The notes under the pieces: model-generated | Told to the model about the DNA's origin: nothing | Seen by the model: only the letters and a program-made list of their open reading frames with translations | Database searches by the model: none | Translations under genes and position numbers: made by a program | Origin: Aestuariirhabdus litorea | GTDB taxonomy: Bacteria; Pseudomonadota; Gammaproteobacteria; Pseudomonadales; Aestuariirhabdaceae | DNA: 64,000 bases | NCBI RefSeq assembly: GCF_003864255.1 | Contig: NZ_QWEZ01000001.1 | Location: 1,488,001-1,552,000 of the forward strand | Reading direction: 5' to 3' | Shown here: one piece after another, positions 39,852 through 60,765 of the stretch | Layout: every line of letters begins with the position of its first letter | How positions within the stretch are numbered: position 1 is the first letter of the stretch

Positions 39852-39858
39852 GGCTAAG

Positions 39859-44200: not shown

Positions 44201-45945
44201 CCCCTAACCCCATGATTAGCCGAAAACACCCCGCCCTGCTCAGGGTTGTGTTTGCCCTGTGCGCTCTCCTGTGGATCTCCCCGCTCATGGCGGAGAGCTT
44301 TGTCGCCTCGGTAGACCGCACCCAAATCAGCCTCGGCGAAACCGTCGAGCTGACGCTGCGCAGCGACAAACAGCAGTTTTTCACAACCCCCGACCTCTCT
44401 CCCCTGATGGAGCATTTTGAGATACTCGGACAACGCCAGAGCAGCCAGTTCACCATCACCAACGGCAAGAGTGTCTCCTGGACCGACTGGATCATCGAGC
44501 TGCGCCCGAAACGCAGTGGCTTTGTGGTGATCCCCCCGATCGTACTCGAAGGGCTGGCGACCGACCCCATTACCCTGGAGGTTGGCGCCGCGGGCGCCCA
44601 GACACAAACGCCCAGGACAGACAGTGCTGCTCCGGTCTTTATTGAAGGCGAACTCGACCGTGAGGAGGCCTACGTCCAGCAGGAGATCATCTATAACCTG
44701 CGCATCTACCACTCGGTACCGCTGTTTGATGACAGCCAGCTCAGCGAACTGAAAATCGAAGATGCCATTGTGCAACAGCTGGGGGAACCCAACGCACGCT
44801 CTGAAGTGATCAACGGCACCCGCCACGGCGTATTCGAGCTACGATACGCGATCTACCCCCAGCGCAGCGGTGAGCTGGTTATCCCTTCGCAGATATTCAC
44901 CGCGACAGCGGCCAACAACCAGGGTCGGTTTGACCCGTTCCTGGGGGGGCGGCCTGGTAAGCGACTCGCCATCCGCTCCGCGGAGATCCGCATAGAGATT
45001 AAGGCGGCCCCGGCTGGAAGTGAGGGTAAGCCCTGGTTACCAGCCAGGGAGTTAACCCTGGAACAGCAGTGGAGCGGCGATCCCAAGGCCATGAAAGTGG
45101 GTGATGCCATTACCCGTACCCTGGTGATGCGGGCAGACGGGCTGACCTTTGCCCAGCTTCCTCCGCTACAGGCGGATGAGGTAGCGGGGCTCAAAGCCTA
45201 TCCCGACCAGTCACAAACTGAAAATCACCGCTCCGAGCAGGGGGTTCTTGGCGAGGTCCGCTTCGCCAGCGCCTACGTCGCCACGGAGCCGGGTACCTAT
45301 CGACTGCCGGCACGCAGCATCCAGTGGTTCGATACCGAACGTGGTCAGTTTAGCCAGGCGACTCTTCCCGAGGAGACCCTGACCGTGCTGCCCACGGCCA
45401 GGCTGTCACCAACGCCTCCCACCCCCCAGCCCCAGCCTCTGCTGCCGCCCCCCACCACGGAAGCTACCACTGGCCCGCTCGCCCCATCGAACGAAGCCGA
45501 CCGTACAGATCTACCCTGGCCATGGATCAGTGCCCTGCTGGCAATGCTTTGGATAGCAACTCTTATATGGGGCCTACAGCGCCGCAAGCCGCTCCCCGTC
45601 AGTGCGGCTTCCCGCCCCCCGCTTACGTCGGGGGAGGAGTCTGCTTTCCAATCGCTGGTTGCCGCCATCGAGCAGGAGGTGGATGGCCCAACCCTTCTTC
45701 AACACCTGCGCCAGTGGCTGGGACAACTGCTGCAGCAACCGGCGGACCGATCGCTGGCCAGCCTCAACCAAGAGTTGAGTGATACCGAGTTGAATGCCTT
45801 TATTCAGCAGCAGGAGCGGTCGCTATACAGCCCCCAGCAGCAACCCTCCCCTACCCCGGCTACGCTGCTGGGGATCATTCATCGACTCAGGCGGCAGCAC
45901 CTCGACACCGGGAGTGCTCCCCAGCTTAAAGCGCTGTATGGTTGA
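44194..45945 (+). CDS. batD: BatD-family protein
   Basis: 583 residues. Signal peptide at about 13-33 (LLRVVFALCALLWISPLMA), a long periplasmic Ig-like region (SFVASVDRTQISLGETVELTLRSDKQ...), and a C-terminal helix (about 445-463, WPWISALLAMLWIATLIWGL) with a cytosolic tail. Last gene of the MoxR/Bat operon, overlapping batBC by 7 bp. BatD proteins are anchored periplasmic partners of the BatA/B VWA proteins, associated with envelope or oxidative stress tolerance. I see no clear terminator directly after it. Confidence 0.9.
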   Translation: MVTPNPMISRKHPALLRVVFALCALLWISPLMAESFVASVDRTQISLGETVELTLRSDKQQFFTTPDLSPLMEHFEILGQRQSSQFTITNGKSVSWTDWIIELRPKRSGFVVIPPIVLEGLATDPITLEVGAAGAQTQTPRTDSAAPVFIEGELDREEAYVQQEIIYNLRIYHSVPLFDDSQLSELKIEDAIVQQLGEPNARSEVINGTRHGVFELRYAIYPQRSGELVIPSQIFTATAANNQGRFDPFLGGRPGKRLAIRSAEIRIEIKAAPAGSEGKPWLPARELTLEQQWSGDPKAMKVGDAITRTLVMRADGLTFAQLPPLQADEVAGLKAYPDQSQTENHRSEQGVLGEVRFASAYVATEPGTYRLPARSIQWFDTERGQFSQATLPEETLTVLPTARLSPTPPTPQPQPLLPPPTTEATTGPLAPSNEADRTDLPWPWISALLAMLWIATLIWGLQRRKPLPVSAASRPPLTSGEESAFQSLVAAIEQEVDGPTLLQHLRQWLGQLLQQPADRSLASLNQELSDTELNAFIQQQERSLYSPQQQPSPTPATLLGIIHRLRRQHLDTGSAPQLKALYG

Positions 45946-46388: not shown

Positions 46389-47030
46389 CTATTGAGGCTT
46401 GGCGAACGTTTTCAACACCTCATTCAGCTCCTCGAGCGCTTTATTGTCGTCTTCAGTCAGCGGTGCTGAAGCGCTACAGCGCGGGTCGGTCTTTTGCAGG
46501 GCAGCCAGCATGCGTCGGGTAATGGGTATTGGGTCGCAGCCATGACCCATTTCGCAGATCATATCGAATTCGGGGCGCGCTTTAACGTGGCAGGCAAAGC
46601 AATTACCACCGAATTTATTAACCACATCGACAAAACCGCGTTTACCAATGCGGGTTCCTTCTTTCGAGACATCCAGTTCAAAGAATTCCCAGTCTTTAGT
46701 CGCGGTGTTGAAGCCTTTGGGGTGCTTTACCATCACCTCACCCGGAATAAGTTGCACCACGGACCCCGGCGGATAAACGCCCTCACCCTTCTCCGCAACC
46801 TCCGTGGTGGCTTGGAGATTACCCAGCAGGTTATCAACAAAGAAATGACGAACCTTAACCATATCGGTCAAACACTTAAATGAGTCATCGCTGACTTCTA
46901 TCGGCTCAGGGGGGGCGGCTACCGCAAGCCCATGAGAAATGGCCAATAATGCAGTGATGGATAAAATCCACTGACGAAGCGAGAGACATCGGGATGAATG
47001 GACAGACCGGTATAGAGAGAGAATATTCAT
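46389..47030 (-). CDS. periplasmic cytochrome P460-like haem protein
   Basis: 213 residues. Signal peptide (hydrophobic about 21-39, cleavage near VAAPP), then a P460-like domain: YPPGSVVQLIPGEVMVKHPKGFNTATKDWEFFELD followed by the single c-type haem motif CFACH at C144-C147-H148 within GGNCFACHVKARPEFD. Extra Cys residues occur at 53, 159, 165 and 184. P460 relatives oxidise hydroxylamine or bind NO; some lack activity. No nitrification genes are near. It sits alone beside a decayed gene in a lower-GC patch, which suggests recent acquisition. Function is uncertain. Confidence 0.75.
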   Translation of the reverse strand: MNILSLYRSVHSSRCLSLRQWILSITALLAISHGLAVAAPPEPIEVSDDSFKCLTDMVKVRHFFVDNLLGNLQATTEVAEKGEGVYPPGSVVQLIPGEVMVKHPKGFNTATKDWEFFELDVSKEGTRIGKRGFVDVVNKFGGNCFACHVKARPEFDMICEMGHGCDPIPITRRMLAALQKTDPRCSASAPLTEDDNKALEELNEVLKTFAKPQ

Positions 47031-47756: not shown

Positions 47757-47789
47757 CAAAAAAAACCGCGCCGGGGCGCGGTTTTTTTT
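47757..47789. terminator. bidirectional terminator downstream of the RND permease gene
   Basis: ACCGCGCC and GGCGCGGT form an 8-bp stem around GG, flanked by an A-run and an 8-T run. It lies 16 bp after the permease stop on the minus strand. Confidence 0.9.
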
Positions 47790-47804
47790 GGGCGAGGGTA
47801 GGAA

Positions 47805-50147
47805 TTACCCCTTAGCCGCCAACTTCTCAGGCCGTACAAAGAAGCGGGCCAATGCAGGCAGCAGCCAGAGGGCGCCCACCATGTTCCAGAGGAACATAAA
47901 GGTCAGCAGGATACCCATGTCCGCCTGGAACTTGATCGGTGACCAGATCCAGGTGCCCACACCGATCGCCAGGGTCACACCGGTGAAGCTCACGGCCTTG
48001 CCGGTGGTCCGCAGGGTAGCGTAGTAGGCCGACTGCAGGTCCATGCCCTGGCGCAGGAAGCTTTCCAGTCGACTGTAGATATAGATACCGTAGTCCACAC
48101 CGATACCCACACCCAGCGCGATAACCGGCAGGGTCGCCACCTTCACACCGATGCCCAGGTAGGCCATCAGGGCCTGGCACAGCACCGAGGTCAAGCCAAG
48201 CGGGATGATGATGCAGATTACCGCACGGATGGAGCGGAAGGTGATCAGGCACAACAAGCTGACCACTCCGTATACCCACACCAGCATCTGGTCCTGGGCC
48301 GCTTCGATCACTTCGTTGGTGGCCGCTTCGATGCCCGCGTTTCCGGCAGCCAGCTTAAACTGGATGCTGTCGGAGTTGTTGGCTTCGGCAAACTCGAGGC
48401 TGGCCTTAACCACCGCTTGCAGCGTCTCCGCCTTGTGGTCCTCAAGGAACAGCAGAACCGGTGCCAGGCTGCAATTGTTATTGAACAGGCCCTGTGCACG
48501 GCTTATGGAGTTGTTCAACACATACTGGTTACGCGAAAGCGTTTGCCACTTGAGGTTACCCTCATTCAACCCCTTGATCACCAGCTTGGAAACAGTGACC
48601 AATGAAGCTGCCGACTGGACGCCCTTTACGTTCTCCATCGTCCACATGTAGCGGTCGATCGCCTCCAGAGTGGCGTAGGTGGCACACTGCTCGGGGGCCG
48701 TTTCCACCATGATCACCATCACATCAGCACTGGTTGAGTAGTTCTGGGTGATGAAAGCGTTGTCCTTGTTGTAGCGCGAATCCGGGCGCAGTTCAGGCGC
48801 ACCCGGGTCAAGGTCACCGATTTTCAGCCCCTGGCTGGCGTAAAGCCCCACGAACAGCAGTACAAAAGCGATCCCGACCGACACCGGGGCTACTTTTGGG
48901 CTGGCAAAGCTGGACATCAGCTTCCATCCCTTAGGCTCTTCCTTAGCGTGGCGCTGCGCACGTTCGATGGAGCTCTTGCTGACACCGATGTAGGACATCA
49001 GCACCGGCAACAGCACCAGGTTGGTCAGGATAATCACCGCGACCCCGATACTGGCGGCAATGGCCAGGTCGCGGATTACGTCGATTTCGATCACCAACAG
49101 AGTCAGGAAGCCGATGGCGTCAGATACCAGAGCCAGCATCCCTGGAATGTAAAGCGAACGGAAGGTTCGACGCGCCGCCGTCAGGCTATCTGCCCCCGCC
49201 GCGGACTCGATACCCATGGCGTTGATAATCTGCACACCGTGACTCACACCGATGGCAAACACCAGGAAGGGAACCAACACCGAATAGGGGTCAAGGCCAT
49301 AGCCCAGAGTAGCCAACAGGCCCAGCTGCCAGACCACCGCTACCACCGAGCACATGAGCGGTATTACGGTACTCTTGGGGCAACGGGAGTAGAGGTAAAG
49401 CAGAATCAGGGTGATGCCAATGGCCATCGCGAAGAAGTAGGCGATAGAACCAATACCATCGATCAGGTCGCCAACCTTTTTGGCGAATCCGATAATGTGA
49501 ATCTTCACGCCATGATCGGAGAACTTCTCCCGAACTTTCTCCTCCAGCTGGTGCGATAACTCCTGGTAGTTGAGTCGCTCACCGGTCTGGGGGTTGATCT
49601 CAAACAGAGGAACAAAAATGATCGTGGATTTGAAATCATTGGCGACCAGGCGTCCAACCTGACCCGAGCGCAGCACATTGGTGCGCAGCTCTTCCAGATT
49701 GGCCGGGTTGGTAAAATCGTCATCCTCGGGGATTACGGGGCCGCCTTCGAATCCCTCTTCAGTGACCGCCAACCAACGAACATTAGCGGTCCACAGAGAC
49801 TTGAGTCCACCCCGGTCCACGCCAGGCAGGTAGAACACCTCGTCATTGATTTTTTGCAACGCTTCCATGTATTCGGGCGTAAAGATGTCGCCCTCTTCGG
49901 CTTCGACCGAAATGCGGATCGAGTTACCCAGGTTTTCCAGGTCGTCGCGCTTTTCCAGCATGTTTTTAATGAAGGGGTGCTCCAGAGGGATCAGCTTCAT
50001 AAAGCTGGCATCGGGACGCACATCCAGCATTTTGTACCCGAGGAAAAGGGTAGCCAGCAGGAAGAAGGCAAGAACAATAACGCGGTTGTTGAAAAAGAGA
50101 CGCTCGAGAAGAGGAGCTGCCTCACCGTGATGCATACGTGTTGACAT
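47805..50147 (-). CDS. RND/MMPL-type efflux permease
   Basis: 780 residues. About twelve transmembrane helices: TM1 near 27-46, a periplasmic loop of about 180 residues, a helix bundle near 225-385, a second loop, and a C-terminal bundle near 625-765. The repeated GVG(I/V)xxGVxYGIYIYSR-like segment (about 700-720) and GVSHGVQIINAM (about 300-310) match the MMPL/HpnN lipid-exporter side of the RND superfamily rather than AcrB-type pumps. Likely exports a hydrophobic molecule. Co-directional with the YCF48-like gene (14-bp gap), so they form an operon. Confidence 0.87.
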   Translation of the reverse strand: MSTRMHHGEAAPLLERLFFNNRVIVLAFFLLATLFLGYKMLDVRPDASFMKLIPLEHPFIKNMLEKRDDLENLGNSIRISVEAEEGDIFTPEYMEALQKINDEVFYLPGVDRGGLKSLWTANVRWLAVTEEGFEGGPVIPEDDDFTNPANLEELRTNVLRSGQVGRLVANDFKSTIIFVPLFEINPQTGERLNYQELSHQLEEKVREKFSDHGVKIHIIGFAKKVGDLIDGIGSIAYFFAMAIGITLILLYLYSRCPKSTVIPLMCSVVAVVWQLGLLATLGYGLDPYSVLVPFLVFAIGVSHGVQIINAMGIESAAGADSLTAARRTFRSLYIPGMLALVSDAIGFLTLLVIEIDVIRDLAIAASIGVAVIILTNLVLLPVLMSYIGVSKSSIERAQRHAKEEPKGWKLMSSFASPKVAPVSVGIAFVLLFVGLYASQGLKIGDLDPGAPELRPDSRYNKDNAFITQNYSTSADVMVIMVETAPEQCATYATLEAIDRYMWTMENVKGVQSAASLVTVSKLVIKGLNEGNLKWQTLSRNQYVLNNSISRAQGLFNNNCSLAPVLLFLEDHKAETLQAVVKASLEFAEANNSDSIQFKLAAGNAGIEAATNEVIEAAQDQMLVWVYGVVSLLCLITFRSIRAVICIIIPLGLTSVLCQALMAYLGIGVKVATLPVIALGVGIGVDYGIYIYSRLESFLRQGMDLQSAYYATLRTTGKAVSFTGVTLAIGVGTWIWSPIKFQADMGILLTFMFLWNMVGALWLLPALARFFVRPEKLAAKG

Positions 50148-50161
50148 GAGTATCCCCTGAA

Positions 50162-51214
50162 TCAGTTATCGAGTGGCTTACGATCAGAGCCACCAGCAAG
50201 CACTCGATGAGCACCGCCCTGCCCTACCAAAATCCAACCACCATCCGGTGCCTGCTCAATACCATTGATGAGCAGGCGGTTAGCCCGGGATGTCAGGGAT
50301 ACGCTATTACCGTCATCGCGGCTGATCAGGATATTACCCGAGTCGCCGACGATCACCTGGGACCCATCGCCCAGCAGACGACCGGCAAACAGGCCCTGCT
50401 CAGTGCCGCTGTCAACCTGCTGCCAGCTGTCACCAGTATCGTCGGTCCTGAAAAGGTGTCCGCGCAGGCCAAAAACCAGTGCGGATTCGGGCTTCTGGCT
50501 GGGAACAGCCCCGAAGAAGGAGCCATCATAGGGGCTTTCCAAGGCTTCAAAATAGGCGCCCTCATCAGTGGAGCGGTACAGAGTACCCTGCTCACCGGCA
50601 ATCAACAGAGTGCCATCACCCAGCGCGATCATGGCATTCAGGTGCAGCTCCTCCACATTATCAATATTCTCTTTCCACTCATCCCAGGTAGTGCCACCAT
50701 CTTCGGTGCGCAGGAAGTAGCCGTACGCACCGATGGCAAACCCGTTCAGGTCATCCTTGAACCAGACATCCAGGAAAGGGACTTCGGCATCCGGGTCATC
50801 GTACTGCTTAACCCAGGTCTCACCCCCATCGACTGTTTTCAGGATCACGGCATCGTGGCCCACTGCCCAGCCGACCTTTGGGGTTGGGAAGCTGGTTGCG
50901 GTCAGCATCTGCTGGGTAGGCACCTTGGCCTGGGTCCAGTTAGCACCGCTATCATCCGAATAGAGGATATGGCCACGATCACCGACCGCGACCATCCGGT
51001 CGCCAGCTCGGGCAACATCCAGCAAAATAGAGTGAATAGCCTTCTCAGCTATTACGGAATAACGCACAGCTTCCTCAGCTGAGGCGCTCGAAGCGGCCAC
51101 CCCTAACAGCAGCAAGGCAAGATACCTAAGGCTCAGCACCAGATTATCGTAAGTCGTTTGCAGCAGAGTCATAGCGGGGACAGAGTGAGATGATTGCCAG
51201 CGGGCATCTCGCAT
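50162..51214 (-). CDS. YCF48 / BNR-repeat secreted protein
   Basis: 350 residues; ATG 51214 has an AGGGAG site, though MTLLQTTYDN at 51172 is a possible shorter start. A signal peptide runs to about ASSASAEEA. The mature part is a beta-propeller of YCF48-like blades: DRGHILYSDDSGANWTQA, DAVILKTVDGGETWVKQY, YFLRTEDGGTTWDEW, GTLYRSTDEGAYFEA, GHLFRTDDTGDSWQQVDSG. Each has an SxDxGxxW-like Asp-box. In plant YCF48 such propellers guide assembly of photosystem II, but here the partner is unknown; the RND permease is the obvious candidate. Confidence 0.85.
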   Translation of the reverse strand: MRDARWQSSHSVPAMTLLQTTYDNLVLSLRYLALLLLGVAASSASAEEAVRYSVIAEKAIHSILLDVARAGDRMVAVGDRGHILYSDDSGANWTQAKVPTQQMLTATSFPTPKVGWAVGHDAVILKTVDGGETWVKQYDDPDAEVPFLDVWFKDDLNGFAIGAYGYFLRTEDGGTTWDEWKENIDNVEELHLNAMIALGDGTLLIAGEQGTLYRSTDEGAYFEALESPYDGSFFGAVPSQKPESALVFGLRGHLFRTDDTGDSWQQVDSGTEQGLFAGRLLGDGSQVIVGDSGNILISRDDGNSVSLTSRANRLLINGIEQAPDGGWILVGQGGAHRVLAGGSDRKPLDN

Positions 51215-51248
51215 ACAGAAACTCCCTTATTGTTATCGTTGTTCATCA

Positions 51249-51267
51249 TTTTAAACAAACGTTTAAA
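51249..51267. promoter_or_regulatory. PsrA-like palindrome upstream of the YCF48/RND genes
   Basis: TTTAAAC-AAAC-GTTTAAA (51250-51267): a perfect 7-bp inverted repeat with a 4-bp spacer, 35 bp upstream of the YCF48-like ATG. The AAAC-N4-GTTT core fits the (C/G)AAAC-N2-4-GTTT(G/C) motif of the Pseudomonas regulator PsrA, apart from the flanking bases. A second copy is at 55184-55203. Confidence 0.65.
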
Positions 51268-51395
51268 TTGCGGGGGCATTATATCGAGTTAGATTAGAAG
51301 TTTCTTGCCCTTTCTGCGGAAAAGCGGCGGGATAGATAAAAATCATCCCTTAGAGTGAAGCCGCTCAACACTGACTCTAACCCCATGAAAAACAT

Positions 51396-51426
51396 AAAAA
51401 AGCCGCCCAATGAGGGCGGCTTTTTT
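51396..51426. terminator. bidirectional terminator after the DUF1329 gene
   Basis: GCCGCCC and GGGCGGC pair around AATGA, flanked by an A-run and a T-run. It lies 15 bp after the DUF1329 stop on the minus strand and separates it from the YCF48/RND operon. Confidence 0.9.
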
Positions 51427-51441
51427 CAACCTGCAGGAGAC

Positions 51442-52818
51442 TCAGCGAGTTCCGCGACGACGCAGGGATGATGAGGTGAAATAGTTCTCTTTGGGGATAG
51501 GCTGAGAGAAGTCCACAAAGGCGGGTTCCTCGTTCGCCAACCCCTGAATGTGGTAGCGACGAGCCTGCAGATCGTGGAACACATCCAGGCCTGTCCAGGT
51601 GGTGGGCAGGTCATAGTAGTTGATCAGGTACGCCATGCTAACCCGCCACAGCTGGCCGCGACCGTCGTACTGATCAACCACTGCCGCACCCCAGCTATCC
51701 TCATCAAGATAAAGAGTACGCTTGGAGTAGACATGGCGAGCCCCCTCTTTCAGCACACCCTCAACGACCCATACCCGATGCAGTTCATAGCGAGTCAAAT
51801 CGGGGTTGACGTGACCGGGCTGCAACAACTGCTCGTAGCTCACCTCGGAAGAGATCAGGCGGTAGTTGTTGTAGGGAATATAGATCTCCTTCTTGCCCAC
51901 CAGCTTCCACTCGTAGCGATCGGGAGCCCCGTTATACATATCGGTATCGTCAGCTGTACGCAGACCATCCGCATCGGTAATGGGGGTATCGTAGGAGATG
52001 CTGGGAGCGCGACGCACCCGTCGCTGTCCGGCATTGTAGGCCCATGCCTGGCGAGGCTCTTTTACCTGATCCAGCGTCTCGTGAACCAGTACCGCACCAC
52101 CGGCCAGACGCGCTGGAGCCTTGGTAAAGGAGAGATAGTAGAAGAGGATATTCTCCAGCTCCGCCTCGGTCATGCCCGGATAGTAGTACTTGAACCCCGC
52201 CTCCTGCTGCGAGGAGACCAGCGTATAGACACCGGTACGATGCACGGCCACTTCCGATGCACTGCGCACCACATACTCACCGCGGTATCGAACCATGTGG
52301 TTCCACAACGCCTCAAGACCATTCTTCGGAATCGGGAAAGGAATCGCACCGATAGAGCCAGTCACACCATTCCCCCCCTCAACCAGCTTTGCCTTGGTGG
52401 CCGCGGCGATGGTGGCATCGTACACGCGCTGTGGAGAGGAGTGGCTGCGATGGGTCTTATAGATCGGCATCTTGAAGCTTTCCGGATAGGCTTCAAACAT
52501 CGCCAGCTGGCCCGGTGTCAGCTTATCCGCATACTGCTGGACATTGGCCGCGGTGATCACAAACTCGGGCTTCTCCCCCGCGTAGGGATCGGGATAATGC
52601 TGACCCGGCTGCTTATAGGCGGCGGGGATCTTGTCCTTGGTAATACCGCCCGTCCAGGCTGGAATTGTACCCGCAGCGTTACCCGCCTTTTCAGCCCCGA
52701 AGGGGGTCAACTCATTGCCCAGTTTTGCGGCTTCCTCGGCGCTGATGGCCGCCATGGCGGAACCAGCTGTCATGGAAAGCGCCGCAACGGCACTAATTAT
52801 CAGTTTCTTTTTGAACAT
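51442..52818 (-). CDS. DUF1329 periplasmic lipoprotein-carrier-like protein
   Basis: 458 residues. Signal peptide at 1-23 (MFKKKLIISAVAALSMTAGSAMA). The mature start ISAEEAAKLGNELTPFGAEKAGNAAGTIPAWTGG is the DUF1329 hallmark, and the rest follows the family up to YLINYYDLPTTWTGLDVFHDLQARRYHIQGL. DUF1329 proteins are predicted to have a LolA/LolB-like half-barrel fold and to bind hydrophobic groups in the periplasm. They are usually found next to DUF1302 and an RND permease, as here. Function not established. Confidence 0.92.
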   Translation of the reverse strand: MFKKKLIISAVAALSMTAGSAMAAISAEEAAKLGNELTPFGAEKAGNAAGTIPAWTGGITKDKIPAAYKQPGQHYPDPYAGEKPEFVITAANVQQYADKLTPGQLAMFEAYPESFKMPIYKTHRSHSSPQRVYDATIAAATKAKLVEGGNGVTGSIGAIPFPIPKNGLEALWNHMVRYRGEYVVRSASEVAVHRTGVYTLVSSQQEAGFKYYYPGMTEAELENILFYYLSFTKAPARLAGGAVLVHETLDQVKEPRQAWAYNAGQRRVRRAPSISYDTPITDADGLRTADDTDMYNGAPDRYEWKLVGKKEIYIPYNNYRLISSEVSYEQLLQPGHVNPDLTRYELHRVWVVEGVLKEGARHVYSKRTLYLDEDSWGAAVVDQYDGRGQLWRVSMAYLINYYDLPTTWTGLDVFHDLQARRYHIQGLANEEPAFVDFSQPIPKENYFTSSSLRRRGTR

Positions 52819-52857
52819 AATGCTTGCTCTGTATCTTAAGTAATCGGGATAACTGAG

Positions 52858-52890
52858 GATCGAGCCGTCGCACGGACGACGGGCTCGATC
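52858..52890. repeat. intergenic hairpin between DUF1302 and DUF1329 genes
   Basis: GATCGAGCC-GTCG pairs with CGAC-GGGCTCGATC around CACGGA with a single bulged base. There is no T-run, so it is not a normal terminator; it may protect or split the transcript and set unequal levels of the two proteins. Confidence 0.55.
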
Positions 52891-52899
52891 ACAGTGCCA

Positions 52900-54879
52900 T
52901 TAGAACGAGTACTTGATGTTGAACGCGACGTGGTCGCGATCGGTGTTGTTGTTGGAGCTACCGGCACCCTCATACTGGGTATAGGAGATCCCTCCGGAGA
53001 GTGTACTCAGGTAGTCAGCATTCAGCCCCAGACTATAGGCAGAGCGCCCCTCCATGAAGTTCCCCGCGCGGTGCGAGTTACCGTCAATGTCGCTCTTGAC
53101 CACCAAAACCGGGCTCAGGTTAACGCCGGCAATCACATCGTTCCAGCGCCCCTGAAGCACGGCAGTGGCTCCATAGGCGGTTCGGGTCAAACGCTTTGAC
53201 TTGACGCTGTTATCGCCAGAGTTCTGGGCGGTGGAGTTCATCACCTTCATCTCATTACTGGTGAGTTCAGGCAGCCACTCACCCGACACCTCCACAACAC
53301 CGATCAGGCGATCGAAGCTGAGAACCGGCCCAAAATTATGGATCGCATTGAGGTTCCAGTTAACGGTCTGGGTTTCAACCCAGTTATGGACGGTTTCACC
53401 TACACACACGGAGTCCAGAAGGTTCTGCTTCTGACCGGTGGCGCCATGGGGAACGTTCAGATCCGCACAGTCGGCATTGGTACCACCAAAGAATGAAGGC
53501 GCGTTCCTTACTACGGAGCCCAGCAAGTCATCCTCATGGTAGGCAAAGATCGGATTGTTGGGACGATAGGCGATATCGCCCGACACCGAGGTATCCCCGA
53601 CGAGAGTGGTAAAACTGGCCCCCCAAAGGTCGATATTCTCCTCATAGGAACGGAAAGCACGAACGCTCTGCATAACGTCAAGAGTACCGAAACCCACAGC
53701 TCCCTGAAATGCCGGGTTTGCAAGGTTCACTACACAGGCGCCCCCCTGAAGCGCAGAGCAAATACCAATAAAATTAGTACCTGAATAGTCACCCAGATTG
53801 GCAGAAATCAATGGAGTTTTGTGGTGGTAGTTGAGGTAATAGAAACCAAACTCGGTCTCGTTCAACTCTTCGGCAATGTAGCGCAGTGCTACACCGAACT
53901 GCCCACTGTCCTTGGCCTCATCGTCGTTGACGATCTGGCCAAAATTGGCCCAAGCACCATTGTTGAGGGTATTTGCGTCGATATTAAGGGAACCACTGCT
54001 GACAAACGGGTCAACAGCTGCGCTTGCTCCGCCCAGATAGGCACCAAACAATCCCTCCAGTGGTGTCCCGGCAACATCCTGCCAGATCAGGTTCCCTTCT
54101 CCACCCGGGGAGAAAAGGTCGGTGGTGCTGAAGTAGGTGCCCACCGGGTTCAAGCGGGTCTCATTCCACTCCCACTGGACAAAGGCCTCGGCACTGAGGT
54201 TATCGGTAATCCCCAGGTTGGCATAGAGCATACCGGCCGGTAGCAGCGCATCCTTCACCTCGGAGCCCGGCAGGTTGAACGCTGCCGCATCCAGGGCGTT
54301 GATGGAATTGACCCCTTCACGGTAGAAAATCCCCTCGCCCCAGCTGATTACCTGCTTACCAAGACGCAGGCTCAGGGGCATCTCGTTTTCGCCCAGATAA
54401 AAGTTGCCATACACGAAGGCGTCCATGAACTCGGCACGGGAACCCGCGTAATCCTTGGCCTTGTCGCTGTACTTACGGCCATAGCCGCTGGGCTGGTAAG
54501 GCAGGTCACCGCTGTCATTCTTCTTGTCCATGATCTCGGCATCGTAATAACCGCGAGCGCGTACAAAGGCACCGTAGTCCAGGTAGTTCATCTCCACTTC
54601 GGTATTGATTTTGTAGACTGAGGAGACGAGCCCGGTATCAAAGTTACGGTTTCCGTCGTTATCGTTAACGCCGCCATTATCGATATTGGTCTTACGCGAC
54701 TCTACCCGCCACAGCGCACCATAGGCGACAGTGGTATCGACGGAACCGGTCACTTCACCGTCCGCAAAATCAAACTCTATGGCCTGTACCGGCAGTGCTG
54801 CCATCAGGCCAGCGAGAGCGAAGCCCGCTTTAGCTGGGGCTATACGCAGAGACAGTGGATGGCTGTTCTTGGTGTTCAT
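52900..54879 (-). CDS. DUF1302 outer-membrane barrel protein
   Basis: 659 residues. Signal peptide to about residue 33 (LAGLMAALPVQA). Mature start IEFDFADGEVTGSVDTTVAYGALWRVESR is the DUF1302 signature. Beta-strand-like alternating residues run throughout and the C-terminus ends in Phe (VAFNIKYSF), the BamA-recognition pattern of outer-membrane barrels. Mid-protein it has LRLGKQVISWGEGIFYREGVNSINALD, typical of the family. Likely the outer-membrane component working with the DUF1329 and RND proteins. First gene of the cluster, 81 bp before the DUF1329 gene. Confidence 0.92.
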   Translation of the reverse strand: MNTKNSHPLSLRIAPAKAGFALAGLMAALPVQAIEFDFADGEVTGSVDTTVAYGALWRVESRKTNIDNGGVNDNDGNRNFDTGLVSSVYKINTEVEMNYLDYGAFVRARGYYDAEIMDKKNDSGDLPYQPSGYGRKYSDKAKDYAGSRAEFMDAFVYGNFYLGENEMPLSLRLGKQVISWGEGIFYREGVNSINALDAAAFNLPGSEVKDALLPAGMLYANLGITDNLSAEAFVQWEWNETRLNPVGTYFSTTDLFSPGGEGNLIWQDVAGTPLEGLFGAYLGGASAAVDPFVSSGSLNIDANTLNNGAWANFGQIVNDDEAKDSGQFGVALRYIAEELNETEFGFYYLNYHHKTPLISANLGDYSGTNFIGICSALQGGACVVNLANPAFQGAVGFGTLDVMQSVRAFRSYEENIDLWGASFTTLVGDTSVSGDIAYRPNNPIFAYHEDDLLGSVVRNAPSFFGGTNADCADLNVPHGATGQKQNLLDSVCVGETVHNWVETQTVNWNLNAIHNFGPVLSFDRLIGVVEVSGEWLPELTSNEMKVMNSTAQNSGDNSVKSKRLTRTAYGATAVLQGRWNDVIAGVNLSPVLVVKSDIDGNSHRAGNFMEGRSAYSLGLNADYLSTLSGGISYTQYEGAGSSNNNTDRDHVAFNIKYSF

Positions 54880-55463
54880 TGACTACTCCGTGAATAGTTC
54901 ATTTTTAGTGTTGTTTTGTTGTGCGACCTCCCAAGCCCAGCAGAATAACGGATAGAGGCCATATGCCCCCTCTGTCCCACAGCCAGGGTGATTGAGACGC
55001 CAACACTTTCTAACGAAGGTTTTGTGTTCTATCCGAATTAAAGGCAATTAAAGCGCCAACCCTTATAAAAACAGAGCCAAAAGTGGAACAAATGTACTAT
55101 AAAACGCTGCTCATCTATGCCGTAACGCTGGCGCAAATCATCGAACTGAACACAAGCCAAGGCATCATACCGAGGTTTTACGGTTTTAAACAGACGTTTA
55201 AGCGGCAAAAATGAAAAATGCGCCCCGCCAAACTTCAGCGAAAAACAGGGTAAACTGGATGAAAATTAGAGGTATTTAACAAAAAAAGAAGACCGAAAGC
55301 AGAAAATTAAGGCAACCCACCAACTCCTTGGCGCAAAATAAAATCCCAGCTCACCGTTGACGGCTCAGAAGGTAACAAAATATCAGAATTGGCGTAACAA
55401 AGAGCACCCATGCGGTAACACCCGCAAAAAGTTACAAACACTAACGTTCAGGTAACGGACGGC
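54880..55463. other. 584-bp AT-rich intergenic region upstream of the DUF1302 gene
   Basis: No gene is supported on either strand. It holds a PsrA-like palindrome (55184-55203) and must contain the DUF1302 promoter. It is clearly more AT-rich than its neighbours. The MFS gene on its right ends into it with no clear terminator. Confidence 0.6.
55184..55203. promoter_or_regulatory. second PsrA-like palindrome, upstream of DUF1302
   Basis: TTTAAAC-AGAC-GTTTAAG (55185-55202), differing at one spacer base and one arm base from the copy at 51250-51267. It is 305 bp before the DUF1302 ATG. Two near-identical sites flanking one gene cluster point to shared control. Confidence 0.6.
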
Positions 55464-56663
55464 TTATAGTGGCGCTGTAACAGGGTTTCCCATCAGGGCC
55501 ACCCGCGATGGTGTTGGCTGGGAAGGCACATTGCAGGCCAGGAGCAGCGAGCCCAGAGCCATCACGGCGCCGATCAGGAACACCGCTGACGGTGAACTGA
55601 GCCAAATCACACCAAAAAGCGCGGGAATCACTACCGCCGCGATATGGTTGATGGTAAAAGCCACCCCTGCCGTCGAGGCGATATCAGCAGGATCGGCTAT
55701 CTTCTGGAAGTAGGTCTTGATGGCAATCGCCAGGGCAAAAAACAGGTGATCGACGACATAGAGGGCTCCCGCTACCCAGGCCTGCTCGACGAAAGCGTAC
55801 CCGGTAAACACCAGTATCAACCCAATATATTCAATCACCAGCGCCCTGCGCTCCCCGATCCGCCCGATCAGCGCCCCGATGCGGGCGGCAAAGAACAGGT
55901 TGAACAGGTGGTTAATAATGAATAGCAGAGCGATCTCACCCACCCCATAACCAAATTTTTCCACCATCATAAAGCCGGCAAAGACTATAAAGATCTGCCG
56001 CCGGGCACCGCTCATGAAGGTCAGGGCGTAATAAAGCCAGTAGCGCTGGCGCAACACCAGGTGTTTATTCTGGATGTGGGGCTGGGGAAACAGGGGATAA
56101 GCCAGAGCGCAGAAGGCCACGATCAGGAGCGCCAGCCCTCCCCCGACCAGGTACATGACCACATAGCTTAGTCCCAGCAATTCACTCATCAGCCAGACCA
56201 GAGAGTAGACAAAGAGTGAGCTGAAGGATCCTACCGCAATCAAGCGGCCCAATACCCGAGGGGCTTCCCTCTGGTCGAGCCACTGCAGTGAGAGTGAGGT
56301 TTTCAGGGTCTCAAAATAGTGAAAGCCAACCGACATCAGTACCGTTGTGCAGTAGAGCCCAATCACCGATGGGAACCAGCCGGTGATGGCCACCCCGGCC
56401 CCCAGCAGCGCCAGGGAGAGAATGGCAAAGCGTTGTTCGCGGATCACCAGTAGCACAAACACGGCGGTAAAGGCGAGAAAACCGGGCACCTCCCTGAGGC
56501 TCTGCAGCAATCCGATCTCGGCGCCATTAAAACCCGCCTGGTCGATCACAAAGTTATTGAGCAGGGTCTGCCAGGTTGCAAAGGCCAGCGGGGTTGCCAT
56601 CGACATCAATACCAGCAATCCAGAGGGGGTTTGCCAAACTTCGCGTTTCAGCCAGCGGCGCAT
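55464..56663 (-). CDS. MFS transporter
   Basis: 399 residues, about twelve transmembrane helices in two sets of six, with a cytosolic middle loop (FPQPHIQNKHLVLRQRYW, about 193-210). The first loop has an RExR-like pattern (REQRFAI) and the second half GRIGERRALVIEYIG, a loop A-like motif of the major facilitator superfamily. Substrate unknown. It lies between the DUF1302 cluster and the prp operon on the same strand, but each is separated by a long gap or a terminator, so it is probably its own unit. Confidence 0.82.
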   Translation of the reverse strand: MRRWLKREVWQTPSGLLVLMSMATPLAFATWQTLLNNFVIDQAGFNGAEIGLLQSLREVPGFLAFTAVFVLLVIREQRFAILSLALLGAGVAITGWFPSVIGLYCTTVLMSVGFHYFETLKTSLSLQWLDQREAPRVLGRLIAVGSFSSLFVYSLVWLMSELLGLSYVVMYLVGGGLALLIVAFCALAYPLFPQPHIQNKHLVLRQRYWLYYALTFMSGARRQIFIVFAGFMMVEKFGYGVGEIALLFIINHLFNLFFAARIGALIGRIGERRALVIEYIGLILVFTGYAFVEQAWVAGALYVVDHLFFALAIAIKTYFQKIADPADIASTAGVAFTINHIAAVVIPALFGVIWLSSPSAVFLIGAVMALGSLLLACNVPSQPTPSRVALMGNPVTAPL

Positions 56664-56739
56664 CGGTGGTCCTTATCAGGTCAGGTTAGCGCCCATTATA
56701 AGCCGTGTGGCCCGGGGAGAACCATCCTCGGCCCGCAAC

Positions 56740-56770
56740 AAAAAAGCCACGACAGAATCGTGGCTTTTTT
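56740..56770. terminator. terminator of the prp operon (after prpF)
   Basis: GCCACGA and TCGTGGC pair around CAGAA, flanked by an A-run and six T. It follows the prpF stop by 38 bp on the minus strand. Confidence 0.9.
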
Positions 56771-56808
56771 GTGACCGGTGGGAAGGCCCCTACCCTCAGC
56801 GAGGCTGA

Positions 56809-57987
56809 CTAAAAGGTATCGCCCGGAATGCGGACTGCCCCCTCCATAATCACCCGCGCGCTGCGGCTCATCACCGCCTTGGTCGCAGTCCACTCCCCAT
56901 TAACCTCTGCGGCGGCAGCCCCTACCCTCAGGGTGCCAGAGGGGTGGCCGAAGGTGACCGCATCACGCGCTCCCCCACCGGCGGCCAGGTTGACCAGGGT
57001 GCCCGGCACCGCGGCCGCCGTCGCAATCGCTACTGAAGCCGTCCCCATCATGGCGTGGTGCAGCTTGCCCATGGAGAGCGCCCGTACGCAAACATCGATA
57101 TCGCTGGCGGCGATCTGCTTGCCGCTGGACGCTTGGTAGTCGGTTGCCGGCGCGACAAAGGCAATCTTCGGCGTGTGCTGGCGGGCCACCGCTTCACTGA
57201 TATCGGCGATCAACCCCATCTTCACTGCACCGTAGGCACGCATGGTTTCAAAGCGTTCCAGTGCGGCGGCATCCGAATTGATGTCTTTCTGCAGCTCGGT
57301 ACCGGTGTACCCGATATCCGCCGCGTTAACGAAGATGGTCGGAATGCCGGCGTTGATCATGGTGGCCTTGAAGGTGCCAATACCCGGCACTTCCAGATCA
57401 TCGACCAGATTGCCGGTGGGGAACATGGAGCCCTCGCCGTCAGCCGGGTCCATGAACTCGATCACCACCTCTGCCGCCGGGAAGGTAACGCCATCCAGCT
57501 CGAAATCACCGGTTTCCTGCACTTCACCGTTGGTAATAGGCACGTGGGCGATAATGGTCTTCTGGATATTCTTCTGCCAGATGCGAACAGTGCAGATGCC
57601 GTTCTCAGGAATCCGCGCCGGATCCACCAGGCCGCCGCTGATGGCGCAAGCACCTACGGCTGCGGTCAGGTTACCGCAGTTGCCGGACCAGTCGACGAAC
57701 GCCTTGTTGATAGCTACCTGACCAAACAGGTAATCGACGTCATGGTCGGGCTGGCTGCTCTTGTCGAGAATCACGGTTTTGGAGGTACTGGACGTGGCAC
57801 CGCCCATGCCGTCGATCTGCTGACCGTAGGGATCGGGTGAACCGATAACGCGCAGCAAAATCTTGTCGCGCGCCTCGCCCGGCTCCTGTGCCGCGGCAGG
57901 CAGGTCCTGTCGGCGGAAGAAAACACCTTTGCTGGTGCCACCTCGATAGTAGGTGGCAGGAATCTTGATCTGCGGTACGTGTGCCAT
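56809..57987 (-). CDS. prpF: 2-methylaconitate cis-trans isomerase PrpF
   Basis: 392 residues. Isomerises the 2-methylaconitate isomer made by AcnD so the cycle can continue to 2-methylisocitrate. Diaminopimelate-epimerase-like fold; visible are the start motif IPATYYRGGTSKGVFFRRQDLP, WSGNCGNLTAAVGAC in the middle and GHPSGTLRVGAAAAEVNG near the end. Last gene of the operon with acnD, 168 bp downstream of it. Confidence 0.95.
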   Translation of the reverse strand: MAHVPQIKIPATYYRGGTSKGVFFRRQDLPAAAQEPGEARDKILLRVIGSPDPYGQQIDGMGGATSSTSKTVILDKSSQPDHDVDYLFGQVAINKAFVDWSGNCGNLTAAVGACAISGGLVDPARIPENGICTVRIWQKNIQKTIIAHVPITNGEVQETGDFELDGVTFPAAEVVIEFMDPADGEGSMFPTGNLVDDLEVPGIGTFKATMINAGIPTIFVNAADIGYTGTELQKDINSDAAALERFETMRAYGAVKMGLIADISEAVARQHTPKIAFVAPATDYQASSGKQIAASDIDVCVRALSMGKLHHAMMGTASVAIATAAAVPGTLVNLAAGGGARDAVTFGHPSGTLRVGAAAAEVNGEWTATKAVMSRSARVIMEGAVRIPGDTF

Positions 57988-58120
57988 AGTGAGTCAATCC
58001 TGTGTGGAATCTGTTGCTATGAAACGGGTCGTTATAGGGCTGCCACCGAACCGGGTCGGCACCATGCCTATAAGGGCCTGATGATTTCTCTGATAACCAA
58101 AAGTCCGGTTAAAAATAGAA

Positions 58121-58151
58121 GCGTGGACGGACGGCTCCGTCCACGCTTTTT
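58121..58151. terminator. strong hairpin just after acnD
   Basis: GCGTGGACGGA and TCCGTCCACGC make an 11-bp stem, with TTTTT on the plus side and TTCTATTTTT on the minus side. It lies 4 bp after the acnD stop, so prpF expression needs read-through or its own promoter in the remaining gap. Confidence 0.8.
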
Positions 58152-58155
58152 CGGT

Positions 58156-60765
58156 TTAGGCGTTACCTTCCAGGAAGTCCTGAGCGAAGCGCTGCAGAAC
58201 GCCGCCAGCGGCGTGAACCACCACCTCTTCGGCGGTATCCAGACGACAGCGAACTGGTATCTCGACCTTTTCACCGTTGGTGCGGGTCATGACCACGGTC
58301 ATGTCGCAACGCGGGCTGATCTCGCCGACCACATCGAAGGTTTCGGTACCGTCGATGGCGTAAGTCTTGCGGGTCTCACCGTCCTTGAACTGCAGCGGCA
58401 GCACACCCATGCCCACCAGATTGGTGCGGTGAATTCGCTCGAAGCCTTCGGCAACGATGGTTTCAACACCCGCCAGGCGAACGCCCTTGGCCGCCCAGTC
58501 ACGGGAAGACCCCTGACCGTAGTCGGCGCCGGCGATGATGATCAGCGGCTGCTTACGTTCCATATAGGTTTCGATCGCTTCCCACATGCGGCTCTCTTTG
58601 CCTTCCGGCTCGATTCGCGCCAGCGAACCCTGCTTCACCTCTCCGTTTTCGTCACGGCACATTTCATTCAGCAGTTTCGGATTGGCGAAGGTCGCCCGCT
58701 GGGCCGTCAGGTGATCACCCCGATGGGTGGCGTAGGAGTTGTAGTCCTCCGGCGCCAGCCCCATTTTGCCGCAGTACTCACCCGCTGCGCTGTCGGGCAG
58801 GATCGCGTTGGAGGGAGACAGATGGTCGGTGGTGATGTTGTCGCCCAGTACCGCCAGCGGACGCATGCCCTTCATGGTACGCTCACCGGCCAACGCCCCT
58901 TCCCAGTAGGGAGGACGACGAATATAGGTGGTCTGCGGGCGCCAGTCGTAGAGCGGACTCGGCGATTTTTCGATCGCACCCAGGTCAAACATCGGGATGT
59001 AGATCTGGTTGAACTGCTCCGGCTTCACGCTCCTGGCGACCAGCGCGTCGATCTCCTCATCGCTCGGCCACAGGTCTTTCAGGGTGATCGGGTTACCGTT
59101 CGGGTCGGTGCCCAGCACGTCCTGCTCGATATCGAAACGGACGGTACCGGCCAGGGCGTAGGCCACCACCAGCGGCGGTGATGCCAGGAACGCCTGCTTG
59201 GCATAGGGGTGAATCCGACCATCGAAGTTACGGTTACCGGACAACACCGCAGTGGCGTACAGGTCACGGTCGATGATCTCTTGCTGGATCTTGGGATCCA
59301 GCGCACCGGACATACCGTTACAGGTGGTACAGGCATAACCGACGATACCGAAGCCCAGCTTTTCCAGCTCGGGCAGCAGGCCCGCTTCTTCCAGGTACAG
59401 TTTGGCGACCTTGGAACCCGGTGCGAAGGAGGTCTTCACCCAGGGCTTGCGAACAAGACCCAGCTCATTGGCCTTCTTGGCCAGAAGGCCTGCCGCCACG
59501 ACGTTGCGCGGGTTGGAGGTGTTGGTACAGCTGGTGATGGCAGCGATGATCACCGCGCCATCCGGCATCAGCCCTTCAGCCTCTTCTGCCTTGGCGGCGG
59601 CCAGTTTGGCTTCGTCAGCGATACCGCGCTCTTTCAGCGCAGAAGTCGGCAGACGGCGGTGCGGGTTGGACGGGCCGGCCATGTTGCGGCACACGGAGGA
59701 GAGATCGAACTCCAACACCCGCGGATACTGTGCCTCAACCAGATCGTCCGCCCACAGGCCGGTTTCCTTGGCGTACTGTTCCACCAGTGCAACCTGCTCC
59801 GGCTCACGACCGGTGAGCTTGAGGTAGTCGATGGTCTGCTCATCGATGTAGAACATCCCCGCAGAAGCACCGTATTCGGGCGTCATGTTGGAGATGGTGG
59901 CGCGGTCGCCGATCGACAGGGACGCGACACCCGGGCCGAAGAATTCCAGGTAAGCGGAAACCACCTTCTCGTTACGCAGGAACTCGGTCATCGCCAGGGC
60001 GACATCGGTCGCGGTGATACCCGGCTTACGCTCACCGACGATCTTAACGCCGATGATCTCGGGCAAACGCATCATGGAGGGACGACCCAGCATGACGGTT
60101 TCCGCTTCCAGGCCACCGACACCGATAGCAATAACGCCCAGGCAGTCAACGTGCGGGGTATGACTGTCGGTACCCACGCAGGTATCCGGGAAGGCCACGC
60201 CGTCACGGGCCTGGATCACCGGAGACATCTTCTCCAGGTTGATCTGGTGCATGATGCCGTTACCGGCCGGGATCACGTCAACGTTGTCGAACGCGGTCTT
60301 ACACCAGTTAATGAAGTGGAAGCGGTCGTCATTACGACGATCTTCGATGTCTCGGTTCTTTTGGAAGGCATCAGGATCGAAACCGGGGGCTTCAACCGCC
60401 AGCGAGTGATCGACGATCAGCTGGGTCGGCACCACCGGATTAACCTTGGCCGGGTCACCGCCCTGATCGGCGATGGCGTCACGCAGACCGGCAAGGTCAA
60501 CCAGCGCAGTCTGGCCGAGAATGTCATGACAAACAACGCGCGCCGGATACCAGGGAAAATCCAGTTCCTGCTTGCACTCGATGAGCTGCTTGAGGGAATC
60601 GGTCAGCGCTTCCGGCTCGCAGCGGCGTACCAGCTGTTCCGCCAGGACGCGGGAGGTGTAGTTCAGTTTTGCATAAGCACCGGGCTGGATCGCCTCGACC
60701 GCCGCACGGGTATCGAAGTAGTCCAGCGTAGAGCCCGGTAGCGGCTTACGGTATTCAGTGTTCAT
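58156..60765 (-). CDS. acnD: Fe/S-dependent 2-methylisocitrate dehydratase AcnD
   Basis: 869 residues. Aconitase-family enzyme that dehydrates 2-methylcitrate in the AcnD/PrpF version of the pathway (no PrpD here). Iron-sulfur ligands are in ITSCTNTSNPRN and YACTTCNGMSG; the C-terminal swivel domain contains GADYGQGSSRDWAAKGVRL. N-terminal YRKPLPGSTLDYFDTRAAVEAI is typical of AcnD. Second to last gene in the operon; a 96-bp gap separates it from prpC. Confidence 0.96.
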   Translation of the reverse strand: MNTEYRKPLPGSTLDYFDTRAAVEAIQPGAYAKLNYTSRVLAEQLVRRCEPEALTDSLKQLIECKQELDFPWYPARVVCHDILGQTALVDLAGLRDAIADQGGDPAKVNPVVPTQLIVDHSLAVEAPGFDPDAFQKNRDIEDRRNDDRFHFINWCKTAFDNVDVIPAGNGIMHQINLEKMSPVIQARDGVAFPDTCVGTDSHTPHVDCLGVIAIGVGGLEAETVMLGRPSMMRLPEIIGVKIVGERKPGITATDVALAMTEFLRNEKVVSAYLEFFGPGVASLSIGDRATISNMTPEYGASAGMFYIDEQTIDYLKLTGREPEQVALVEQYAKETGLWADDLVEAQYPRVLEFDLSSVCRNMAGPSNPHRRLPTSALKERGIADEAKLAAAKAEEAEGLMPDGAVIIAAITSCTNTSNPRNVVAAGLLAKKANELGLVRKPWVKTSFAPGSKVAKLYLEEAGLLPELEKLGFGIVGYACTTCNGMSGALDPKIQQEIIDRDLYATAVLSGNRNFDGRIHPYAKQAFLASPPLVVAYALAGTVRFDIEQDVLGTDPNGNPITLKDLWPSDEEIDALVARSVKPEQFNQIYIPMFDLGAIEKSPSPLYDWRPQTTYIRRPPYWEGALAGERTMKGMRPLAVLGDNITTDHLSPSNAILPDSAAGEYCGKMGLAPEDYNSYATHRGDHLTAQRATFANPKLLNEMCRDENGEVKQGSLARIEPEGKESRMWEAIETYMERKQPLIIIAGADYGQGSSRDWAAKGVRLAGVETIVAEGFERIHRTNLVGMGVLPLQFKDGETRKTYAIDGTETFDVVGEISPRCDMTVVMTRTNGEKVEIPVRCRLDTAEEVVVHAAGGVLQRFAQDFLEGNA

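Follow-up and report, generated by a model that had tools for sequence, protein, structure and literature searches.

A 64,000-nt stretch of the 3.66-Mb genome of Aestuariirhabdus litorea, hereafter the window, carries a minus-strand run of four genes (54879-47805; all coordinates are positions in the window) that encode, in order, a DUF1302 protein, a DUF1329 protein, a YCF48-like protein and an MMPL-type permease, as called from the open reading frame (ORF) list and Pfam. We find that these genes form a cassette of the AmeABCD type which falls into two transcription units, both preceded by nearly the same palindrome, one that resembles the operator of the fatty-acid sensor PsrA; this arrangement is a new observation. 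We tentatively favour, at a little short of even chances, the reading that the cassette is a PsrA-controlled conduit for hydrophobic growth substrates, which would carry long-chain fatty acids, or a lipid that yields them, mainly inward. The original prediction had described an uncharacterised envelope export system of unknown cargo, with a lipid-like cargo and control by fatty acids suggested; the last two suggestions gain evidence from operator-like sites, a psrA homologue, a matrix scan and published work on PsrA (PMC13104628, PMC11890623), while the other parts of that account, as set out below, do not hold as they were stated. Cassettes of this kind are already known from users of oily or aromatic compounds, and the new evidence concerns possible PsrA-type control.

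Putative PsrA-type sites before both transcription units

The four genes are real and all lie on the minus strand, with matches to PF06980, PF07044, PF14870 and PF03176 (Table 1). A strong terminator, predicted from sequence at 51426-51396, cuts the set into a DUF1302-DUF1329 unit and a YCF48-MMPL unit, a split absent from the original account. The same-genus genome G001 also has a hairpin in the gap between DUF1329 and YCF48, but its stem sequence differs; the gene order is common to both genomes, upstream MFS, prpF and acnD genes included. The two shared palindromes of the original prediction are confirmed: TTAAACGTTTGTTTAA and TTAAACGTCTGTTTAA have the minus-strand stretch AAACGTYTGTTT in common, both contain the core AAACN4GTTT, and the genome has just two exact copies of TTAAACNNNNGTTTAA, one some 37 bp ahead of the YCF48 start and the other some 307 bp ahead of that of DUF1302. 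Conservation in G001 is complete for the YCF48 site (16 of 16 bases; flanks, 134 of 178 columns) and one base short of complete for the DUF1302 site (15 of 16; flanks, 101 of 200 columns).

The genome encodes one protein of PF17939, a family that corresponds to the C-terminal domain of PsrA (95.6 bits, cut-off 26.3); its gene lies between lexA-like and nagZ-like ORFs, in the order lexA-psrA-nagZ (lexA and nagZ named from sequence), and CAAACGTATGTTTG stands upstream of it. Two further copies of the AAACN4GTTT core precede an acyl-CoA dehydrogenase gene, and another lies between the etfBA and ETF-QO genes (again named from sequence). In Pseudomonas, the PsrA operator is given as (C/G)AAACN2-4GTTT(G/C), PsrA represses its own gene, and its direct targets include PA0506 (acyl-CoA dehydrogenase), PA2952-2951 (etf) and PA2953 (ETF-QO), with PA2953 and mmsR under positive regulation (PMC13104628); the ligands are fatty acids above C12 (PMC11890623). 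The core motif is therefore common to the cassette and to the classic targets within this one genome, and both cassette units appear to be fatty-acid-induced through a PsrA-type sensor that would bind these sites. The likeness to the Pseudomonas regulon extends to the position of the psrA homologue beside lexA and to the acyl-CoA dehydrogenase and etf co-targets; the window differs in that a transport cassette is not among the targets described in the excerpts available of the two reports (PMC13104628, PMC11890623). Likewise, a search of open-licence full text, as far as its excerpts go, returned no tie between the cassette and PsrA, and the locus numbers of the P. aeruginosa cassette, PA3079-PA3082, do not occur in a PsrA overexpression paper (PMC11233452).

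Two sets of related loci were used to follow the sites across genomes: 80 named loci, the best of at least 526 confirmed DUF1329 relatives found with the DUF1329 protein, each with flanks of up to 10 kb, and a non-random sample of 20 high-scoring places in relatives of the same order (L103-L122). A matrix was built from five sites, none of them from a cassette (those of psrA, acyl-CoA dehydrogenase twice, etf, and the acyl-CoA dehydrogenase of the relative G039), and was scanned over the 300 bp before each gene plus some 60 bases inside it, in all named and order-relative loci holding that stretch. With cut-offs of 12 and 15 that were chosen by the analyst and not fixed beforehand, a score of at least 12 is reached before DUF1302 at 26 of 92 loci, compared with 2/74 for YCF48 (G001 and G035), 1/99 for DUF1329 and 0/74 for MMPL. 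Because the loci are mostly from related Pseudomonas, column-permuted matrices were run on the same loci as a control, and 60 such palindromic matrices average 0.5 loci before DUF1302 and never exceed 4 of 92. Judged against shuffled upstream sequence, sites at p 0.01 precede DUF1302 at 23/92 loci, YCF48 at 1/74, DUF1329 at 3/99 and MMPL at 0/74; at p 0.05, DUF1329 rises to 18/99 vs 5 expected, with low scores. The Pseudomonas sites take a degenerate form, ATAC-N4-GTTTGAA, that is visible by the matrix scan only.

Allowing up to one mismatch to TTAAACNNNNGTTTAA gives 8 places genome-wide, compared with 4 for a reversed control; of the six inexact ones, that at etf resembles a PsrA target, one at a rhodanese-like gene might be, and the rest are taken as chance. 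The former of these two is described above; at the latter, AAACGTTTGTTT lies at the start of the gene (L129:1501, G000:C1:622938-622949; named from sequence) with a core identical to that of the YCF48 site, and this gene is a possible further target of a PsrA-type regulator. A one-mismatch copy at window 5754-5769 falls inside a gene that we presume to be RmuC-like and is probably a chance match.

Linkage of the cassette and its two modules

The linkage of the four families, stated in the original prediction, is borne out across genomes: 60 of the 80 named loci hold all four genes, as do 7 of 8 inspected plasmid regions. Another 19 named loci hold DUF1302 and DUF1329 only, and the last begins inside DUF1329 at a contig edge. 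More widely, a DUF1329 match is present in 32 of 56 whole genomes, the present one included, most of the others being from other families of the same order. The order-relative sample divides into 8 loci with all four genes, 7 with DUF1302-DUF1329 only (one of which, L116, sits at a contig edge) and 5 with DUF1329-YCF48-MMPL and no detectable DUF1302; adjacency of all four is therefore not universal. Two of the 8 full loci are not compact, with intervening ORFs in L104 and divergent pairs in L120.

The YCF48-MMPL pairing is tighter. A YCF48-like gene directly precedes the AmeD-type MMPL gene at 61/61 named loci and at 13/13 order-relative loci with an MMPL gene, and the same adjacency is seen in the second full cassette of this genome and at 20/20 further loci, a count that leaves out one distant MMPL gene (L159, 20% identity, no YCF48 seen); one plasmid carries YCF48 without an annotated MMPL. 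YCF48-MMPL is thus the constant unit, and DUF1302-DUF1329 pairs are freer. The genome itself has four DUF1329 genes vs two AmeD-type MMPL genes. We searched the 18 genomes behind 18 of the 19 pair-only loci (L084 was left out, being the same strain as L082), and find an MMPL orthologue in 18/18, at 63-65% identity. These genomes yield 217 DUF1329 matches vs 64 MMPL matches at E <1e-60, 61 of the latter at 40% identity or more; the tallies are of matches and not of hand-checked genes, and since the genomes were picked for extra pairs, the ratio is not general. An in-frame TGA in six Pseudomonas MMPL genes (G059, G060, G061, G062, G064, G069) was rejected as an artefact, five giving a local alignment without an internal stop and the sixth a match that overruns the gene's own end.

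These counts would suit a modular, proton-driven uptake system in which a small number of YCF48-MMPL engines, working inward, are shared by many DUF1302-DUF1329 pairs, each pair specific to its own substrate, much as many TonB-dependent receptors share TonB; in this genus, pair and engine would both be PsrA-induced. We consider this extension possible, with the chances clearly against it.

Predicted folds, known systems and direction of transport

A plain hydropathy scan and structure predictions agree with the compartments assigned in the original prediction. The three exported proteins, DUF1302, DUF1329 and YCF48-like, all carry a hydrophobic N-terminal stretch, DUF1302 ends in ...YSF, and the MMPL protein has several hydrophobic segments in each half. 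The DUF1329 model (predicted local distance difference test, pLDDT, 81.8; predicted template modelling score, pTM, 0.85) is a LolA-superfamily half-barrel, as judged from four LolA-superfamily or DUF1329 structures that match at Z 15.5-21.0 and a root-mean-square deviation (rmsd) of 2.6-3.9. Residues 162-458 align with LolA3 (9tp6; Z 21.0, rmsd 2.6, 236 residues), followed by the DUF1329 protein 4z48 (Z 19.0), 3bk5 (18.6), 3buu (15.5) and a LolB (10.8), so the LolB-like fold originally proposed is recovered in the model. The DUF1302 model is moderate (pLDDT 62.8, pTM 0.65) but clearly a barrel; its best matches by VIA are MOMP and the substrate-specific OccK/OprD porins, which tie, with the alginate exporter AlgE slightly lower (Z about 20-23, rmsd 3.0-4.7, about 290-360 residues). 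As modelled, the outer-membrane part gives no decision on transport direction, and the absence of FadL from the structural matches listed for it carries no evidential weight. Sequence searches of the PDB with DUF1329 and DUF1302 return no credible homologue; the YCF48-like protein finds Ycf48 relatives there at E 2e-18 and has Asp-box-like motifs at residues 86, 127, 170 and 257.

The best NCBIfam model for the MMPL protein is HAE3 (TIGR00921, E 4.4e-45), at 154 bits and thus below the curated cut-off of 351.9. MmpL3, a proton-driven RND permease, has an Asp-Tyr pair conserved midway through each half. In our alignment the C half reads GVGIG(V/I)DYG, and the N half reads FA(I/L)(G/A/S)(V/I)SH(G/S/A) in 23 of 24 proteins, with SH where DY is expected; only L159, a distant MMPL, departs from this. 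Of the customary acidic pair, one residue is thus retained and one lost.

In the mechanism that we favour, DUF1302 would be the outer-membrane pore for the substrate, and DUF1329 a LolA-like periplasmic carrier that would shield it and pass it from the pore to MMPL. YCF48-MMPL would form the inner-membrane unit, presumably driven by the proton gradient, with MMPL putting the substrate into the inner membrane for acyl-CoA synthesis. A PsrA-type TetR regulator would repress both units, and long-chain fatty acids would lift this repression together with that of the acyl-CoA dehydrogenase and etf genes. A precedent for the inner-membrane step exists: NPC1, a member of the RND superfamily, inserts into the membrane lipid that a soluble carrier delivers on the non-cytoplasmic side, and its receipt of cholesterol from NPC2 offers an analogy for an MMPL protein taking substrate from DUF1329. 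Membership of the RND family therefore leaves inward transport possible. A bacterial RND protein that works inward would have an unusual role and would give hydrophobic nutrients a new way in. Since the ligands of the fatty-acid sensor are known, control by it would supply a defined inducer as well as a candidate cargo with which direction can be tested.

The closest known system, AmeABCD of Castellaniella defragrans, shows that the cassette was not uncharacterised: reported in 2018, it comprises AmeA (DUF1302), AmeB (DUF1329), AmeC (COG4447) and AmeD (an HAE3-type RND protein), the same four families in the same order, conserved as a unit (PMC6394551). It differs in lying inside a monoterpene island, where the window set lies between Bat-type genes and MFS/prpF/acnD, and, from what the report's excerpts describe, the two PsrA-type sites and the internal terminator are particular to the window. 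An ameB transposon mutant and an ameABCD deletion both show monoterpene growth phenotypes, the deletion giving a lower yield on monoterpenes as sole carbon source and lower tolerance (PMC6394551). In Pseudomonas putida, growth on Tween 20 needs PP_0765 (DUF1302), PP_0766 (DUF1329), PP_2018 and PP_2019, and AlphaFold contacts among the parts led the authors to propose a novel transport system (PMC10866462). The likeness lies in a DUF1302 and a DUF1329 protein combined with a periplasmic protein and an efflux transporter; PP_2018 is probably YCF48-like and PP_2019 AmeD-like, but by locus numbers these two pairs stand apart, whereas the window genes are together. With monoterpene and Tween 20 phenotypes published, neither was the cargo without precedent.

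Three further reports widen the family's range, in line with the terpene, aromatic and lipid degradation genes that adjoin related cassettes in Proteobacteria. COG4447-COG1033-PF07044-DUF1302 operons of Betaproteobacteria, with the same four families, are likewise under catabolic regulators, but AphS, AphR and AphT respond to aromatic compounds and are not fatty-acid sensors (PMC6449761). A 'nanopod' cluster of benzene degraders encodes DUF1329, YCF48-related, MMPL and porin-like proteins, and differs in its anaerobic benzene context and in the universal stress protein gene and hypothetical gene interspersed (PMC13101534, which also cites a phenanthrene growth phenotype of a DUF1329 deletion). 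Among the Delftia nanopod proteins, DUF1302 and DUF1329 genes adjoin in a cluster whose context, unlike that of the window, is phenanthrene (PMC3110197).

Import versus export is not settled in the excerpts of this literature. The ameABCD deletion accumulated more Nile Red in cells treated with carbonyl cyanide m-chlorophenylhydrazone (CCCP), and its authors propose export (PMC6394551), whereby, in the present case, MMPL would expel membrane-damaging fatty acids, DUF1329 and YCF48 would act as adaptors and DUF1302 as exit pore, and PsrA induction would answer substrate toxicity. We regard this detoxification as possible if unlikely, yet the Nile Red result and the usual behaviour of RND proteins make it a rival to be taken seriously. 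The lowered tolerance and the partial relief of monoterpene toxicity by acetate as co-substrate (PMC6394551) agree with it, and the RND matches include MmpL3, MmpL4, MmpL5, HpnN and multidrug pumps, whose annotations are for export or lipid transport. Export accounts less readily for the reduced yield of the same deletion on monoterpenes as sole carbon source, for the need of the P. putida set in growth on Tween 20, for control that looks common to the cassette and beta-oxidation genes, and for plasmid neighbours that are mostly degradation genes (below). The phenotypes in these reports share a loss of growth on a hydrophobic substrate, and the cassette is apparently co-induced with beta-oxidation genes; for these reasons we favour inward delivery. 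Export, as originally stated, is thus one group's reading of Nile Red accumulation and tolerance, and uptake is at least as good a fit for the growth phenotypes and the PsrA-type control.

Several results nonetheless weigh against a PsrA-controlled conduit that brings fatty acids inward. The Nile Red and tolerance data point outward, the well-studied bacterial RND pumps are exporters, and an exporter, AlgE, also matches the DUF1302 model. The genome encodes its own FadL-family protein, so fatty-acid uptake has another route. At the operator, both cassette sites have T/A as the outer base, where the published PsrA consensus has C/G. A genome-wide enrichment of the core motif was rejected (52 occurrences vs 48 for a reversed control), as was an exact conserved site in named relatives, since AAACNNNNGTTT precedes DUF1302 in 4/77 of them (1.1 expected) and YCF48 in 0/61. 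A lipase gene that adjoins some related pairs (below) is found at 0/80 named loci, and aromatic-compound genes lie beside plasmid copies, so that the cargo of the family is not lipid alone.

Features and neighbours of the locus

The coordinates of the cassette and its signals are collected in Table 1; for the YCF48-like protein a later start at Met15 is possible.

Table 1. Genes, terminators and operator-like sites of the cassette, in window positions
Feature	Position	Strand	Basis
DUF1302 outer-membrane barrel (AmeA-like), first gene of unit 1	52900..54879	-	PF06980 E 1.8e-156
DUF1329 periplasmic LolA/LolB-like carrier (AmeB-like)	51442..52818	-	PF07044 E 4.3e-163, plus LolA_like PF17131
YCF48-like Asp-box propeller (AmeC-like), first gene of unit 2	50162..51214	-	PSII_BNR/YCF48 PF14870 E 7.8e-22
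MMPL/HAE3-like RND permease (AmeD-like)	47805..50147	-	MMPL PF03176 E 7.1e-32
Intrinsic terminator between DUF1329 and YCF48 (predicted)	51396..51426	-	13-bp stem plus T run
Putative PsrA-type operator TTAAACGTTTGTTTAA, ~37 bp 5' of YCF48 start	51251..51266	-	exact genome match
Putative PsrA-type operator TTAAACGTCTGTTTAA, ~307 bp 5' of DUF1302 start	55186..55201	-	exact genome match
Probable terminator 3' of MMPL	47757..47790	-	perfect 16-bp inverted repeat with A and T runs

A DUF1329 relative is encoded by 42 of 72,556 plasmid records, and eight regions were chosen for inspection among the 30 matches listed. As annotated, the full cassette is present in seven and the eighth is without an annotated MMPL; one Vibrio plasmid has the first two genes swapped, DUF1329 ahead of DUF1302. 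Most of the genes alongside serve degradation (acyl-CoA dehydrogenase, long-chain-fatty-acid-CoA ligase, dioxygenases, fumarylacetoacetate hydrolase, aldehyde dehydrogenases), and the copy on the Pseudomonas sp. MPC6 plasmid has no obvious degradation gene alongside. This prevalence of degradation genes in the inspected regions weighs against another explanation, that an endogenous lipid is exported to the outer membrane or surface, as HpnN does for hopanoids and BstA for sterols. In its favour, the MMPL protein weakly resembles the HpnN, BstA and MmpL3 models, with scores far short of the cut-offs, and LolA-like carriers move lipoproteins outward; many DUF1329 copies per genome are, on the other side, ill suited to a single structural lipid. 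We consider this explanation improbable.

A neighbour test compared 42 loci (32 with other DUF1329 copies and 10 order-relative ones) with 20 control loci, all but one from the genomes of the test loci, using five probe proteins. The numbers are modest: the L117 lipase (PF12262), or an ORF 27-33% identical to it, adjoins DUF1302/DUF1329 at 4/42 loci vs 0/20 controls, and a thiolase probe is positive at 6/32 loci vs 1/20 controls and at 1/80 named loci. The lipase would fit a set that serves the secretion or assembly of a surface esterase or lipase acting on Tween and lipids, and PP_0765/PP_0766 had earlier been suspected of a hydrolase role (PMC10866462). Such a role, which we hold to be slightly more improbable still than the export of an endogenous lipid, sits poorly with the lack of this lipase at the named loci, and growth on monoterpenes or phenanthrene should need no esterase. 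Within the present genome, one pair (L013) has an AMP-ligase-like gene on one side, with a thiolase-like gene beyond, and a LuxR/MalT-like regulator on the other, and the second full cassette (L015) lies a few kb from enoyl-CoA-hydratase-like genes, as read from sequence.

Around the named loci, a gene that we presume to be pepN-like (an aminopeptidase) lies upstream in 47 of the 61 with MMPL, and genes that we likewise take to be Bat-type lie downstream in 38 of 61. Homologues of four Bat-type neighbours are kept near the cassette at window 39844-45387, and the pepN-like protein has no match within the window; on this basis the locus in the window and that in Pseudomonas probably go back to one ancestral locus, with a rearrangement on one side. 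The proximity of the Bat-type genes suggests an old chromosomal neighbourhood and not a recent island.

Directly upstream of DUF1302, at window 55464-60765, lie an MFS gene, prpF (TIGR02334) and a gene that we take to be AcnD-like and to belong to the methylcitrate pathway, in an MFS-prpF-acnD order kept in G001; the cassette may be connected to propionyl-CoA derived from odd-chain or branched substrates. A small protein with a weak match, below cut-off, to Cytochrome P460 is encoded at window 46389-47030, in the interval that separates the cassette from the Bat-type genes.

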